This document shows positions 49,449 to 55,392 of a DNA stretch of 61,204 nt, piece by piece. How positions within the stretch are numbered: position 1 is the first letter of the stretch; each line of letters opens with the position of its first letter. The notes under the pieces are model-generated. The model saw only the letters and a program-made list of their open reading frames with translations. It did no database searches and was not told the origin of the DNA. Source of the stretch: Pseudomonadota bacterium (GTDB lineage: Bacteria; Pseudomonadota; Alphaproteobacteria; Rhodobacterales; Rhodobacteraceae); assembly GCA_963205235.1 (NCBI GenBank), contig CAUJIP010000015.1, positions 1 through 61,204 of the forward strand, given 5' to 3'. Position numbers and translations under genes: made by a program.

Positions 49449-50117
49449 ATGGAAATCTTTACCTATGAGGGCTTTGTCGCCCTGATGCAGGTCATCGGGA
49501 TCGACCTTGTGCTGGCCGGGGACAATGCCATCGTCATCGGTCTTGCCGCCGCTGGCCTACCCAAGGAACTTCGTGCCAAAGCGATCCTGGTCGGGATCGG
49601 GGCCGCGACCGTCATGCGGATCGGCTTTGCCCTGATCACCACCCAGCTTCTGGCGATTGTCGGACTGCTGCTGGCCGGCGGTATCCTGTTGCTGTGGGTC
49701 TGCTGGAAGATGTGGCAGGAATTGCAGCAAGGGGCACATGCCCATGACATCGAGGCGGTCGAGGCGCTGGCCAATCAGGACATCGACGCCGACGGCGCGA
49801 TTGCCGACGACGCGCCGAAAAAGACCTTTGCCCAGGCCGCGACGCAGATCGTGGTGGCCGACGTATCGATGAGCCTAGATAACGTGCTTGCAGTTGCCGG
49901 GGCGGCCATGGACCATCCGACGGTTCTGATCATCGGCCTGGCCCTGTCGATCGCGATGATGGGCCTTGCGGCAAGCTGGATCGCCGGCTTGCTGAACAAG
50001 CATCGCTGGATCGCCTATATCGGCCTCTTGATCATCCTTTACGTCGCCTTGAAGATGATGTGGGAAGGCTGGCACGAGGTCGAGCCCTGGGTCCGGGAAT
50101 GGTGGGCAGGGGCATGA
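49449..50117 (+). CDS. TerC-family integral membrane protein (YjbE type)
   Basis: Protein of 222 residues with about seven hydrophobic helices and the TerC motif pair DLVLAGDNAIVIG near residue 19 and VVADVSMSLDNVLAVAG near residue 136, whose intramembrane aspartates and asparagines are thought to bind cations. A cytosolic acidic linker separates the two halves. Known members export manganese or assist metallation of secreted proteins. Its stop overlaps the ATG of the ArsC-like gene (ATGA). Ligand unknown. Confidence 0.9.
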   Translation: MEIFTYEGFVALMQVIGIDLVLAGDNAIVIGLAAAGLPKELRAKAILVGIGAATVMRIGFALITTQLLAIVGLLLAGGILLLWVCWKMWQELQQGAHAHDIEAVEALANQDIDADGAIADDAPKKTFAQAATQIVVADVSMSLDNVLAVAGAAMDHPTVLIIGLALSIAMMGLAASWIAGLLNKHRWIAYIGLLIILYVALKMMWEGWHEVEPWVREWWAGA

Positions 50118-50446
50118 TCCTTTACGGTATTTCCACCTGCGACACCTGCAAGAAGGCGCTGAAGGAACTGGAGCGCGCGGGCAAGGACGTGACCTTCCGC
50201 GACATCCGCGCCGAGCCGCTGGATCGGTCCGAGATTGACCGGATTGTGCAGGAATTCGGGTCAAGGGCAGTCAACACCCAGTCGACGACCTATCGGTCGT
50301 TCAACGACTTTCTCAAGGCGTCAGAGCCCGAGGTGCAGATCGCAGCGCAGCCGACCGTGATGAAACGACCGGTCATCCAGGACGAGGATCGCTGGTATCT
50401 GGGTTGGGACAGCGCGACCGCCGAAACGCTTCTGGGGCCGCGCTGA
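50114..50446 (+). CDS. ArsC/Spx-family protein (arsenate-reductase-like)
   Basis: Protein of 110 residues with a thioredoxin-like fold. It has a C-x-x-C pair in STCDTCKKAL near residue 7, and the C-terminal PVIQDEDRWYLGW is typical of the YffB/Spx-like branch. True ArsC enzymes have one nucleophilic cysteine and three arginines (one seen in this family as KRP..), so arsenate reduction is unproven. The ATG overlaps the terC stop as ATGA, so the two are coupled. The downstream cspA gene converges. Confidence 0.83.
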   Translation: MILYGISTCDTCKKALKELERAGKDVTFRDIRAEPLDRSEIDRIVQEFGSRAVNTQSTTYRSFNDFLKASEPEVQIAAQPTVMKRPVIQDEDRWYLGWDSATAETLLGPR

Positions 50447-50450
50447 CTGC

Positions 50451-50657
50451 TTAAAGCAGGCGCAGGTCGCCGGCCGACTGCTTGCCGTCGCGGCCCGCCT
50501 GAAGTTCGTAGCCGATCTTCTGGTTGTCGCTGAGGCCCTTCAGCCCGGCGCGTTCCACCGCCGAGATATGAACGAAGACATCCTTGCCGCCATCATCGGG
50601 GGCAATGAACCCGTAACCCTTGGTAGCGTTGAACCATTTCACGGTGCCAGTCGGCAT
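50451..50657 (-). CDS. cspA: Cold-shock domain protein
   Basis: Protein of 68 residues, the five-stranded cold-shock fold with RNP1 KGYGFI (residues of about 13-18) and RNP2 DVFVHI (about 26-31). The start is MPTGTVKWFN. Such proteins bind single-stranded nucleic acids and act as RNA chaperones. It converges with the ArsC-like gene with a 4-base gap. The 137 bases upstream of it (50658-50794) should hold a long leader as in other csp genes; I did not identify a cold box. Confidence 0.95.
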   Translation of the reverse strand: MPTGTVKWFNATKGYGFIAPDDGGKDVFVHISAVERAGLKGLSDNQKIGYELQAGRDGKQSAGDLRLL

Positions 50658-50794: not shown

Positions 50795-51334
50795 TCAAGC
50801 CGGAAGGCGAACAGTCGCTTTGGCAAGCAGCCGGTCGACCGACAAGGGCCCCGCGCCTTTCAAGGCCAGCACAACCAGAAGCAGCATCCAGAGCGCCCGC
50901 TGATCCAGGATCAGGGCGTCCGAGGCGCGGTCAAACCAGGCGCCGGTTTCCACCCCGTGACCGAAGATGTCGGTCAGGCTTTGCACCAGGACGAAGCCCG
51001 CCATCCCAAGGGCCGCAAACCGTGTCAGAAGGCCCAACAGGATCAGCAGCGGAAGCGCGATTTCCGCCCATGCCCCGGCGACGGCGACCAGCCAATGGAA
51101 CAGGCCAAGCTGGCTTTGGTCATAGCCCACCGCCTCGAAGACGCGGGGAAATATCTGGGCATGGGCCCCTGCGGTCGGGCTGAAGGGACCGTCCAGCTTG
51201 GTCGCGGCCGAGGCCCAGAAATAGCCCGCCAGCACCCCGGCAAAGACCAGCCGCGCAAGGCTTGGCAAAAGCCAGTCGGATTGGCGGTCGGCAAGGCGCG
51301 CGGCGCGGTCGTAAAGGGCAAGGATTTGGGTCAT
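50795..51334 (-). CDS. DoxX-family membrane protein of the bufferin operon
   Basis: Protein of 179 residues with four hydrophobic helices (SLARLVFAGVLAGYFWASAATKL, WLVAVAGAWAEIALPLLILLGLL, FAALGMAGFVLVQSL, ALWMLLLVVLALKGAG) and the DoxX pattern of Gly/Asp turns. It is last of four genes. Its ATG overlaps the stop of the DUF2063 gene as ATGA (51331-51334). DoxX proteins are frequent partners of MNIO RiPP operons and are thought to act in the inner membrane, possibly in electron supply; the exact role is inference. Confidence 0.85.
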   Translation of the reverse strand: MTQILALYDRAARLADRQSDWLLPSLARLVFAGVLAGYFWASAATKLDGPFSPTAGAHAQIFPRVFEAVGYDQSQLGLFHWLVAVAGAWAEIALPLLILLGLLTRFAALGMAGFVLVQSLTDIFGHGVETGAWFDRASDALILDQRALWMLLLVVLALKGAGPLSVDRLLAKATVRLPA

Positions 51335-52062
51335 TTCGATACTCCGACAATGGCCCTGCCCGAAATCAGCAGACCAAGGATTGCGGCCAGATCAATCGGC
51401 CCGGTGGCAAGGTCCAGACTTTCGCCCAAGGTCCGCCCAGCCATCAGGCCCGCAAGGAACGCTGCCCCGCCCGGCGGCAAAAGCTGCGGGCGCGGATCGA
51501 ATTCGGGGCGCAAGATCAGCAGGTCTTCGGCCTGCGGTTTCGGGGTCGGGCCGTTGTCATGGTTCGCCGCCCAGATCGAGAAGATCGGCCAGCGCGACCG
51601 GATCAGTCGAAGGCTGGGGGCCAGGCGCAGCCGCAGCGCGGCGATGTCCTGACCCAGCAGTCTGTGAAACTCGACCTCAGGCAGATGGGTGCTGTCGGCA
51701 GAGTGGTAGCTTTCGCGCAGCGCCTGATCGACACGGGCGATGTCGGGCAGATAGCCAAGATGGGCAACCGGCTGAAATTGTTCTAGAAACCCTGGCATCT
51801 CATCGCCATACAGCATCAATATCCGCGATTTCGGCGGATGCGCACGCAGGAAAGCCAACGCCATGGCGGCAAAGAACTCTTCGCCCAAAAGCTTGACCAG
51901 CATCGGGAAGGCGGCTTTCAGCGCCTCGACCAGAGACCCCGCGACGTTGTTGCGATAGACCGCAAAGCGCTTGGGCGCGGGGTGACCACGCGGGTCAATG
52001 ACCCCGACAGGCACCGGGGCATCAGGGTCAAGCAGCGCGGCGGCAAAATGGCTTTGGGTCAT
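51331..52062 (-). CDS. bufC: DUF2063 partner protein (BufC/HvfC type)
   Basis: Protein of 243 residues. The N-terminal domain has the family hallmark [22 protein letters not shown] (about 32-53) and [13 protein letters not shown]. The C-terminal part is beta-rich ([20 protein letters not shown]). In MNIO systems such partners hold the precursor peptide for the oxygenase. The ATG and stop overlap both neighbours by four bases, implying equal production of BufB, BufC and DoxX. DNA-binding annotation of this family is not supported by the context. Confidence 0.85.
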
Positions 52063-52904
52063 CTGACCGGCTCCAGAATCCGCGCGGCGCGGGTGGCTTC
52101 AGCGGCCAGTCGGGGCCAGTCGGGCACGTCGTTGTCCCATTCGATCAACGTCGGCAGTGGCCCGGCGCGGCGGATCACACGGGCATAAAGCGCCCAGACC
52201 GGATCGGTGACTTCGGCACCATGACTGTCAATCAACAGCCGCTGGCCATGATCGTCGCGATCCTCGTGATGGCCGCCAAGGTGGATTTCGCCCACCAGAT
52301 GCAGCGGGAAGGCGTCGATATAGGCGACCGGATCGTAATTCTGGTTCACGCCTGAAACGTAGACGTTGTTCACATCCAGCAGCAGACCGCAGCCGGTGCG
52401 CCGCGCAACCTCGGTCAGGAAGTCAACCTCGCCCATCGCGGTTTCCGCGAAGGCGACATAGGTCGACGGGTTTTCCAAATGCATCCGGCGGCCAAGCACC
52501 GACTGCACCCTGTCGATGTGGTCGGCCACGCGGGCAAGGGTCGCCATGGTATAGGGCACCGGCAGCAGGTCGTTCAGGAACGCTCCGTCATGGGTCGACC
52601 AGGCCAGATGTTCGGAAAAGCTGGCGGGTTGCAGCCAGTCGCACAGGTATTTCAGCCGATCCAGGTGGTCGCGGTCCAGCGGGCCTTCGCCGCCGATGGA
52701 CAGCCCGACGCCATGCACCGAAATCGGGAACCGTTCGGCCAGATGCCGCAGTTGCGCCAGCGGGCGGCCACCTGCGCCCATGTAATTCTCGGCATGAATC
52801 TCCAGCCAGCCGACCGGGCGGGCATCCTGAAGAATCGCCTGAAAATGCTGCGGCTTGTAGCCGACGCCGGGTTTTGCAGGCAGGCCGTGCGATTGATCCA
52901 ACAT
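52059..52904 (-). CDS. bufB: DUF692 multinuclear nonheme iron oxidase (BufB/MNIO)
   Basis: Protein of 281 residues forming a TIM barrel. Likely metal ligands are H20 (GYKPQHF), E35-H37-E39-N40 (EIHAEN), H64, H142-E144-N145 (HLEN), D177-N180, E206-H208 and H212 (EIHLGGHH), and D226-H228 (DSHG). MNIO enzymes modify cysteines of RiPP precursors, in bufferins yielding thiooxazole-like groups that bind copper. The ATG at 52904 follows GGGGGAC and is preferred to the TTG at 52916. It is separated from the precursor by a strong hairpin and coupled to bufC (ATGA). Confidence 0.9.
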
Positions 52905-52922
52905 GTCGTCCCCCAAGAAAAT

Positions 52923-52944
52923 CCCCCGGCCCGAAGGCCGGGGG
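52923..52944 (-). other. Stable UUCG-capped hairpin between bufA and bufB
   Basis: On the minus strand CCCCCGGCC-UUCG-GGCCGGGGG: a perfect 9-bp stem closed by C(UUCG)G, the most stable common tetraloop. It begins 9 bases after the bufA stop and ends 18 bases before the bufB start. No T tract follows, so it looks like a stabiliser or partial attenuator giving more precursor than enzyme. Confidence 0.8.
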
Positions 52945-52952
52945 AGATGTCG

Positions 52953-53261
52953 TCATGCTTCCGGCAGGTCGCGGTCCAGTTCTTCCATCGACCCGTGGCG
53001 CATCATGCCTGCCTCGTCGGCCGGCAATTCCATCGTCATGCAGGTCCCTGCTGGCACCAGCTTGAACGAGTTGCCCTGATAGTCGACTTTCGAGGTTCCG
53101 GCGCAGGTGGTGCCTTCGCCCGCCTTGCAGTCATTCTGACCGGCAAGCGCCACGCCGAAGCATTTCTCCATCGCATCTTCCGCCGAAGCGACCGAGGCGA
53201 CCGAGCAAAGCGCCGCAGTCAAGGCACCAGCGATGATCAGCGATTTCGAATGATAGGCCAT
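52953..53261 (-). CDS. bufA: Bufferin-type precursor protein (DUF2282)
   Basis: Protein of 102 residues with a signal peptide (residues 1-27, ending ASVASA). The mature part has four cysteines, C34 ([10 protein letters not shown]), C45 (NDCKAG), C53 (TCAGTS) and C74 (PAGTC), in the spacing of DUF2282 precursors, followed by an acidic, Met-containing tail ([14 protein letters not shown]). It is the substrate of the BufB/BufC pair and would be exported as a metal-binding peptide. The ATG at 53261 has AGGGGA upstream. It is the first gene of the operon; the 134 bases upstream (to the thrS terminator) should hold a promoter, possibly metal-responsive, which I could not assign. Confidence 0.88.
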
Positions 53262-53394
53262 GAAAATTCCCCTTTTGGATGGTGATCGCAACCGTTGCGA
53301 TGCCAGAAGGTCTAGGGGAAAGCCGCGCTCACAAGACAGGCACGGGCGCGTGAAGCACGGCGACGTGACGCTGCCCTTTGCAAGCGCAGAAAAC

Positions 53395-53445: not shown

Positions 53446-55392
53446 TTAGTTTCCGGACGGTGGCAGCGCCTCGACACCCAGGCCTGCAACTGCCGCATCA
53501 AGGCTGATTGTTTCAGTCCGGGTCTCGCCCAGACGGCGCACTGAAACAGTTTTCGCCTCGACCTCTTGCATGCCGATGGCCAGAATCACGGGAACTTTCC
53601 CGACCGAATGCTCGCGGACCTTGTAGTTGATCTTTTCGTTGCGCACGTCAGCCTCGGCCCGGACACCCACCTTACGCAGGGCTGCAACGACTTCATGCAC
53701 GAACGGGTCGGCGTCCGACACAATCGACGCCACGACAACCTGCCGCGGAGCCAGCCAGAACGGCAGGCGCCCGGCGTAGTTTTCCAACAGAATGCCGATG
53801 AAGCGTTCGAACGACCCAAGGATCGCGCGGTGCAGCATGACCGGGCGATGTTTCATCCCGTCTTCGGCCACGAATTCCGCGTCGAGCCGGTTCGGCAGGT
53901 TGAAGTCGCACTGGAACGTGCCGCACTGCCATTCGCGCCCGATCGCATCGGTCAGCTTGAAGTCAAGCTTCGGCCCATAGAAAGCCCCATCGCCGGGGTT
54001 GATCTCATAGGGCAGGCCCAGCTTTTCGATCCCGTTCTTCAAGGCGCTTTCGGCCTTGTCCCAAACCTCATCCGACCCCACCCGCACTTCGGGCCGGGTC
54101 GACAGCTTGATGTCAAACTTTTCGAAGCCAAGATCTTTATAGACGCTGGAAAGGAGGGCGATGAACCCCGCGCATTCCTGCTCGATCTGATCCTCGGTGC
54201 AGAAGATATGCGCGTCGTCCTGCGTGAAGCCGCGCACCCGCATCAGGCCATGCATGGACCCCGACGATTCATACCGGTGGCACGAGCCAAATTCCGCAAG
54301 CCGCAAAGGCAGATCGCGGTAAGACTTCAGACCCTGATTGAACACCTGCACATGGCAAGGGCAGTTCATCGGCTTCAGCGCGTTGATCCGCTTTTCCTTG
54401 GCGCCTTCCTCGTCGACCTCCACGATGAACATGTTCTCGCGGTAGGCCTCCCAGTGGCCCGACTTCTCCCACAACACCCGGTCCACGACCTGCGGCGTCT
54501 TGATTTCCTTGTAGCCAGCCTGCCGCAGCCGCCCGCGCATGTAATCCTCAAGCTGGCGATAGATCGTCCAGCCGTTCGGATGCCAGAAGACCATCCCCGG
54601 CGCTTCTTCCTGCAGATGGAAAAGCTCCATCTCCTTCCCAAGCTTGCGGTGGTCGCGCTTCGCGGCCTCCTCCAGCATGGTCAGATGCGCCTTCAGGTCG
54701 TCGCGGTTCTTGAACGCCACGCCATAGATGCGTTGCAACATCGGGCGGCTGGCATCGCCCAGCCAATAGGCTCCGGCAACATGCGTCAGCTTGAACCCGT
54801 CGGCGGGCACCTGCCCGGTGTGCTGAAGGTGCGGCCCCCGGCACAGGTCCTGCCAGTTCCCGTGCCAGTACATCCGCAGGTCTTCGCCTTCGGGGATGCG
54901 GTCGATCAGCTCGAGCTTGAAGGGTTCGTGGCGGCCCCGATAATATTCTACCGCCCGCGCACGCTCCCAAACCTCGGTCTTGACCGGGTCACGCGCGTTG
55001 ATGATCTGCTTCATCTTGGCTTCAATCGCACCAAGATCCTCGGGCGTGAAGGGCTCGGCGCGGTCAAAGTCATAGAACCAACCCTGATCGCGAACCGGTC
55101 CGATGGTGACTTTCACGTCCGGCCAGATTTCCTGCACCGCGCGCGCCATGATATGCGCCAGATCGTGCCGGATCAGTTCCAGCGCCGGGGCGTCGTCCTT
55201 CATCGTGTTCAGGCTGATCGTCGCATCTCCCGTGATCGGCCAGGCCAGATCCCAGTGCTTGCCGTTGACCTGCGCGGAAATCGCGGCCTTGGCCAGCGAA
55301 GGCGCGATGGATTGCGCCACTTCAAGCGGGGTCACGCCCGCCGCATAGCTGCGCTGATTGCCGTCGGGAAATGTCAGGGAAATCTGGCTCAT
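53446..55392 (-). CDS. thrS: Threonyl-tRNA synthetase
   Basis: Protein of 648 residues. It has an N-terminal TGS domain ([21 protein letters not shown]), an editing domain with the H..H zinc-like motif ([11 protein letters not shown]), the class II catalytic core with [10 protein letters not shown] (zinc ligand cysteine), [14 protein letters not shown] (motif 2), and a C-terminal anticodon-binding domain. It charges tRNA-Thr and proofreads serine. The ATG at 55392 is chosen because the TGS domain starts there; the 147 upstream codons are unrelated. It is followed by its own terminator, and divergent from an alpha/beta hydrolase. Confidence 0.97.

Follow-up and report, generated by a model that had tools for sequence, protein, structure and literature searches.

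In a stretch of 61,204 nucleotides (nt) from a bacterium of the family Rhodobacteraceae (contig CAUJIP010000015.1 of assembly GCA_963205235.1, positions 1 to 61,204; referred to here as the window), we characterized an operon of four genes, bufA, bufB, bufC and doxX, which occupies 53261 to 50795 of the minus strand. As judged by open reading frame and profile analysis, this operon is an ordinary core Buf1 bufferin cluster and a new member of a family already in print (PMC12452194). The new aspect is its regulation: as far as the DNA can tell, the control sequences differ from those known from Caulobacter. Our best explanation of the whole locus, to which we assign a probability of about 0.85, is a copper-protective Buf1 operon that is controlled by a system other than sigmaF and in which an RNA hairpin sets an excess of bufA.

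An earlier reading made from the letters alone (the sequence-only reading) had proposed a bufferin-type gene set in this order, with the last three genes joined by 4-base ATGA overlaps. Profile searches and inspection of the gene borders confirmed both claims, and the following genes were assigned:

52953..53261, minus strand: bufA, DUF2282 (Buf1) precursor, predicted to be exported, 102 amino acids (PF10048, 88.3 bits, cut-off 22.4)
52059..52904, minus strand: bufB, MNIO (DUF692) bufferin maturase, 281 amino acids (Pfam model MbnB_TglH_ChrH, 359 bits, cut-off 25; also NCBIfam and structure alignments)
51331..52062, minus strand: bufC, DUF2063 partner (PME type 1), 243 amino acids (PF09836, 94.3 bits, cut-off 27.2)
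50795..51334, minus strand: doxX, DoxX-family membrane protein, 179 amino acids (PF07681, 40.3 bits, cut-off 23.6)

The overlaps lie at the bufB/bufC and bufC/doxX borders, and a spacer of 48 nt separates bufA from bufB. The strand, the hairpin in this spacer and the repeats upstream of bufA were absent from the sequence-only reading. Its assignment to the bufferin family was borne out by the NCBIfam model NF050167 ('MNIO family bufferin maturase'), which BufB matched with 382.3 bits (equivalog cut-off 310), and by the gene order, which is that of the published core cluster (PMC12452194). The HvfB model gave 246.9 bits for BufB, which is under its cut-off of 360, the HvfC model on BufC and the HvfX model on DoxX gave matches below cut-off only, and no NCBIfam model matched BufA in this profile search. 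When BufB was compared with the solved MNIO enzymes 3bww, 8hci and 7dz9, it could be aligned across conserved segments, including VHGV, SEHLAW, LENPS, LDVNN, EIHLGG, LIDSHGA and IEWD. Taken together, the bufferin reading is supported by its consistency with every sequence test that we ran. The genome of the window contains a single DUF2282 match, and no Rfam family matched in the window at gathering thresholds.

For comparison, we searched 148 genomes (the window's own included) for BufA and obtained matches in 83 of them, again including the window's genome; 80 matching loci were oriented and scanned for bufB, bufC, doxX, thrS and the cold-shock protein gene csp. In what follows, family refers to 62 Rhodobacteraceae loci or sequences (window included) and genus to the 23 loci of the window's own genus. 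It was found that bufB is present at 79 of the 80 loci and that the arrangement thrS-bufA-bufB-bufC-doxX-csp recurs widely, with thrS detected in 46/62 family loci. At several loci without thrS, NrsF lies close by, as judged from match positions.

Published bufferin clusters contain the same four core genes and encode Sec-exported DUF2282 precursors (PMC12452194); a DoxX gene is frequent, not universal, in Buf1 clusters. In Buf1, the central cysteines are modified and the first and the last cysteine form a disulfide (PMC12452194), and 5-thiooxazoles as well as copper binding have been assigned to the bufferin class (PMC13097082). The sequence-only reading had listed four cysteines in the window precursor, C34, C45, C53 and C74. 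These are present and invariant in 62/62 family sequences, and a further cysteine, C19, lies within the putative signal peptide. If the window precursor is treated like published Buf1 precursors (PMC12452194), the following sites are predicted:

53103..53129, minus strand: codons C45-C53 of bufA, predicted thiooxazole sites

On the basis of this analogy, BufB would be an iron-dependent MNIO oxidase that, together with its partner BufC, converts C45 and C53 of the precursor to 5-thiooxazoles prior to export. The Sec signal would then be removed, C34 and C74 would be joined in a disulfide, and the mature BufA would sequester copper in the periplasm and thereby protect against excess copper. DoxX may have a supporting role.

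An alternative that we regard as unlikely accepts the bufferin cluster but assigns it a main ligand or inducer other than copper, either another thiophilic metal (Cd, Cr, Au, Hg) or another stress. In Caulobacter, the DUF2282 operon CC3254-CC3257 is switched on via sigmaF in response to dichromate and cadmium (PMC3511200), gold-induced gig operons and MerC fusions have been described (PMC12452194), and since sigmaF control is not detectable in the window's lineage the inducer may have changed. However, the Caulobacter Buf1 product chelates copper and improves growth under copper excess (PMC12452194), and there is no mercury or arsenic gene among the four operon genes. We consider it extremely improbable that the locus is a relic, with BufA being exported unmodified or not made. 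Some precursors are perhaps unmodified and the functionality of all such clusters has not been established (PMC12452194), but in the window the four frames are intact, the enzyme segments and the four cysteines are kept, and so is the gene block across the family.

Related clusters of the Buf_EGKCG/oxazolin and captophorin types (HvfABC, FonABC) share the MNIO enzyme with its DUF2063 partner, the thiooxazoles and copper binding (PMC13097082). Their precursors, however, consist of EGKCG repeats, and the window BufB falls below the HvfB cut-off and above the BufB cut-off. The EGKCG motif was not found in the window BufA sequence, and the operon does not group with HvfABC/oxazolin.

The sequence-only reading had also pointed to the length and the Sec signal of the precursor and to a Met-containing tail. 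The first two are standard for the family. By eye only, the N-terminus resembles a Sec signal, and residue 28 is preceded by ASA, which looks like a cleavage site. We also considered BufA as a lipoprotein and rejected this option, again by eye: C19 stands in the context TAALC, which lacks the small residue that a lipobox has ahead of its Cys. As to the tail, Met is indeed present, but it is only partly conserved, and the conserved part is a different motif:

52956..53000, minus strand: conserved C-terminal tail of BufA, residues 88-102 (family alignment and AlphaFold confidence)

The family motif reads R-x-G-S-L-x-x-L-x-R-D-L-P, the window having Met for the first Leu. Among the 62 sequences, conservation amounts to 58 for R88, 61 for G90, 54 for S91, 59 for Leu at position 92, 57 for L95, 58 for R97, 58 for D98 and 55 for P100. 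Met occurs in 6 sequences at position 75, in 37 at position 77 (Ile in 20), in 20 at position 86, in 6 at position 87 and in 2 at position 92; position 89 is Met in 32/62 and His in the window. Met is thus common at two positions (77, 89) and invariant at none (n=62), so that a copper site built from tail Met residues is not supported as an invariant feature, although it may still exist. An AlphaFold model of BufA (53 sequences) had a mean predicted local distance difference test score (pLDDT) of 70 and reached 78-79 at residues 81-100. Going by these values, the tail is perhaps ordered, but the weakness of the model allows no further conclusion. One might speculate that BufB/BufC recognise the precursor through this tail or that it assists folding.

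Bufferins have been described as a widespread copper-protection strategy, and the regulation described in the papers cited here is that by sigmaF/NrsF. In Caulobacter, sigmaF recognises GTAACC-N16-CGAA and NrsF is its negative regulator (PMC3511200). The operon CC3254-CC3257 of Caulobacter vibrioides/crescentus has the same order of DUF2282 precursor, MNIO, DUF2063 and DoxX genes (PMC3511200; PMC12452194), but it is under sigF-nrsF control with the above promoter, whereas the window carries a tandem CACG-N4-CGTG element. In the assembled genome of the window, which is 97.6% complete, NrsF gave 0 matches and sigmaF 0 matches at E ≤ 1e-20, and a sigmaF-type promoter (GTAA[CT]-N15-18-CGAA) was not found in the 230 nt upstream of the window bufA. 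The sequence-only reading had stated that no sigma/anti-sigma pair adjoins the operon and had left the regulation open. Its first statement held for the neighbourhood and for the assembled genome as a whole. The second can now be answered in part: no control of the sigmaF/NrsF type was detected, and a candidate operator can be put forward.

When the promoter scan was applied to the 230 nt upstream of bufA at all 80 loci (the pattern occurs at a rate of 0.007 per 230 nt over all fetched loci, bufA sites included), 12 of the 23 genus loci had a sigmaF-type promoter, and all 12 genomes possess NrsF and sigmaF. At the other 11 genus loci, the window included, no such promoter was found; here, sigmaF was detected in 0/11 (E ≤ 1e-20) and NrsF was absent in 10/11. 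In the rest of the family, NrsF was present in 6/6 genomes with the promoter versus 2/33 without it, and in the rest of the class the corresponding figures were 4/4 versus 1/14. A Fisher test on the promoter data takes no account of relatedness and deserves little weight. A quick single-gene tree of thrS (45 rows) shows 7 changes of promoter type, and its supported branches require at least 5 of them. The genus Buf1 loci with a sigmaF promoter in G003, G006, G008 and G031 share with the window the thrS-linked locus, the genes, the hairpin and the dyad TCACG-N3-CCGTG (first dyad); unlike the window, they have GTAA[C/T]-N15-18-CGAA upstream of bufA, and a sigF-nrsF operon, with a promoter of the same type, on a contig other than that of bufA.

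Some genomes deviate from these patterns or show additional features. G007 has NrsF, no sigmaF match at E ≤ 1e-20 and an operator-type bufA promoter, which looks like an apparently orphaned anti-sigma factor, and the genus genome G015 (an 81% complete assembly) has sigmaF and NrsF but no bufA match. The sigF-nrsF loci of G003 and G031 (L122, L123) adjoin, by eye, genes for a secreted hydrolase-like protein and a membrane protein. In L123, L124 and L125, the surroundings of the sigF promoter contain CACG/CGTG half-sites as well.

As candidate control element of the window operon we propose the following sequence, which is the sole zero-mismatch copy in the 3.79-Mb genome:

53341..53367, minus strand: tandem dyad CACG-N4-CGTG-N3-CACG-N4-CGTG, proposed operator

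A regulator binding to this operator would stand in for sigmaF/NrsF, as the distribution of the motif suggests. Its 19-mer CGTG-N3-CACG-N4-CGTG was present in 11/11 genus loci lacking the sigmaF promoter, perfectly matched in 8 and with a single mismatch in the others, and in all of them it lies 98-101 nt upstream of bufA. Among 71 further loci, the 19-mer was found with at most one mismatch in 38, as compared with 15/710 random windows. We also scanned 149 family genomes for the 22-mer, allowing up to one mismatch, and obtained 90 sites in 71 genomes versus about 20 for a reversed-pattern control. Thirty of these 90 sites were examined, and 20 of them lie upstream of bufA, including 7/7 zero-mismatch and 13/23 one-mismatch sites. 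Among the other 10, four lie elsewhere and six share one string, which we take to be coding sequence for ribosomal protein S4 (three were translated). Of the 13 remaining zero-mismatch sites, 6 coincide with known bufA upstream positions. Attempts to find the regulator by way of a shared motif were not successful: the window's genome (up to 2 mismatches) contained 4 sites versus 3 for the control, so that none stands out except the bufA site, and the family scan returned mainly bufA.

The first dyad extends the comparison to both promoter types. With at most one mismatch, it was found in 11/11 operator-type and 8/9 thrS-linked sigmaF-type genus loci, in 9/22 across all sigmaF-type loci, and in 8/1100 random windows; in the sigmaF-type genus loci it is located about 30 nt upstream of the -35 box. 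Its presence in both types suggests that one regulator may serve both of them in the genus. It might be argued that the CACG repeats belong to the thrS 3' region or form a structural DNA or RNA repeat and have no role for bufA, since they sit between thrS and bufA and CACG-N4-CGTG can pair as RNA too. We consider this quite unlikely. The distance to the bufA start is confined to -93 to -134 in the genus and family loci (at most one mismatch, no sigmaF pattern), with one exception at -159; the first dyad is retained at thrS-linked loci of the sigmaF type; and four of the 20 examined genome matches upstream of bufA have no detected thrS.

The second candidate control element lies in the spacer between bufA and bufB:

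52922..52945, minus strand: intercistronic RNA hairpin with a 10-bp stem and a 4-nt loop, followed by TTTTCTT (predicted free energy -22.9 kcal/mol)

To quantify such hairpins, we scanned the 85 nt that directly follow the stop codon of bufA, with scores of 3 for G-C, 2 for A-T and 0 for G-U pairs, one mismatch being permitted at -5, and a threshold of at least 24. It can be seen that 56/62 family loci reach this threshold, compared with 21/1233 coding windows of the same length from the same loci. Elsewhere in the block, the threshold was reached in 0/60 cases after bufB, 0/59 after bufC, 35/46 after thrS and 6/53 after doxX. Folding energies of -15 kcal/mol or lower gave a similar picture, with 57/62 after bufA, 59/1233 coding windows, 8/60 after bufB and 0/59 after bufC. 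The family loci scoring below 24 are L052 (21), L058 (8), L064, L065, L075 and L099. In L058 (G038), bufA is tandemly duplicated upstream of bufB and a hairpin is found only behind the second copy. A further set comprised 72 loci from named genomes, in which the last 80 residues of BufA were not identical to those of the first set; here, 69/72 loci reached 24 and the remaining three scored 23. In other alphaproteobacterial families, the threshold was reached in 3/19 loci. The 56 family hairpins have 54 distinct left arms. Arm pairing is 0.99 within species, which follows from the way in which the arms were selected, and 0.50 on average across species, where 110/3080 arm pairs reach at least 0.9. 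Because the arms differ widely and pair poorly across species, the hairpin is conserved in shape rather than in sequence.

This pattern leads us to infer that the hairpin keeps precursor output above enzyme output: it would cause partial termination or protect the 3'-end, leaving bufA mRNA above the enzyme mRNA. A measured precedent for stabilisation is the puf operon of Rhodobacter capsulatus, which likewise has a stem-loop between cistrons; there, the upstream mRNA segment outlasts the downstream one and this sets protein ratios (PMC10253847, PMC5927463). The puf effect has been measured; for the bufA-bufB hairpin, the evidence consists of its structure and conservation. The hairpin would also distinguish the window operon from that of Caulobacter, a comparison that did not cover the Caulobacter spacer and tail.

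Several observations weigh against the proposed mode of control. In the 61-kb window, a match to the tandem dyad with up to 3 mismatches would be unremarkable (shuffle mean 0.67); the actual match has none. One of the 12 sigmaF-type genus loci, that of G006, also has the 19-mer, at one mismatch and at another position. Among the 71 further loci, the sigmaF pattern was found in 5 and both patterns together in 1; 29 loci lack either promoter type as defined here. With the 19-mer in 38/71 and neither type in 29/71, the operator in its strict form is not universal. The independent events on the thrS tree are too few for a significant sign test (p = 0.125): sigmaF tracks the promoter in 4/4 supported genus pairs, and of the family pairs compared for NrsF, 4 agree and 1 shows no difference. 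Finally, a U-tract (at least 5 T of 9) follows the hairpin in only 11/62 loci. Behind the best hairpin after thrS, where a terminator is expected, this figure is 14/46, so that the U-tract does not discriminate between termination and stabilisation.

The similarity of the latter two figures, that after thrS being not much above that after bufA, also bears on the possibility that the hairpin ends a bufA-only transcript, with bufBC-doxX being transcribed from a separate promoter. The position of the hairpin, which begins 7 nt past the bufA stop codon in the window and is followed by a T-rich stretch, would fit such an arrangement. However, the bufA-bufB gap comprises only 48 nt, and as 24 of these are taken up by the hairpin there is little room for a promoter ahead of bufB. 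Moreover, 7/18 loci from other alphaproteobacterial families have a gap of 2-12 nt, and there a single transcript is likely. We therefore regard separate transcripts as improbable and favour one operon with a hairpin-dependent excess of bufA mRNA.

A shorter palindrome was found between the proposed operator and the bufA start codon, immediately past the likely promoter:

53285..53301, minus strand: short dyad ATCGC-N7-GCGAT, possible hairpin close to the 5' end of bufA mRNA (genus comparison)

In 11/11 operator-type genus loci, the start codon is preceded at -39 to -43 by the dyad [AG][CT]CGC-N6-8-GCG[AG][CT]; a paired match further upstream, at -65 to -72, was detected in 4/12 sigmaF-type genus loci. 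We also considered the palindrome ATCGCAACGGTTGCGAT as a protein operator. An RNA hairpin is likelier, given that spacer length is not constant (6 to 8 nt) and that a G-U pair occurs in one relative.

Extending these findings beyond the window, we put at about even odds the proposal that in much of the Rhodobacteraceae bufferins are under dedicated control, exerted by a regulator at the tandem operator that repeatedly swapped with sigmaF/NrsF in the window's genus, and by a shape-conserved hairpin behind the precursor gene, together with another close to the 5' end, through which bufA mRNA is held in excess. If this is true, the same operon is often under a different, dedicated switch in a large bacterial family; this switch can be traced with a defined DNA bait, and the hairpin would explain how a bulk precursor and scarce enzymes share one operon. 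Our literature searches found no paper on such control of a bufferin operon; they did not cover the founding paper by Leprevost et al., where a mention is possible. The words hairpin and terminator had no match in PMC12509749, PMC12452194 and PMC13097082, three of the nine papers that mention bufferins.

Profiles and locus comparison identified two frequent neighbours of the operon:

53446..55392, minus strand: thrS, upstream neighbour outside the operon
50451..50657, minus strand: csp, cold-shock protein gene, downstream neighbour

Two more genes are encoded on the strand opposite to the operon. The first (50108-50446) specifies a small ArsC/Spx-related protein outside the operon, for which all NCBIfam matches were below cut-off. 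The second (49449-50117) encodes a putative metal transport protein of the TerC/YjbE family, which is present in only 4/81 compared loci, the window included.

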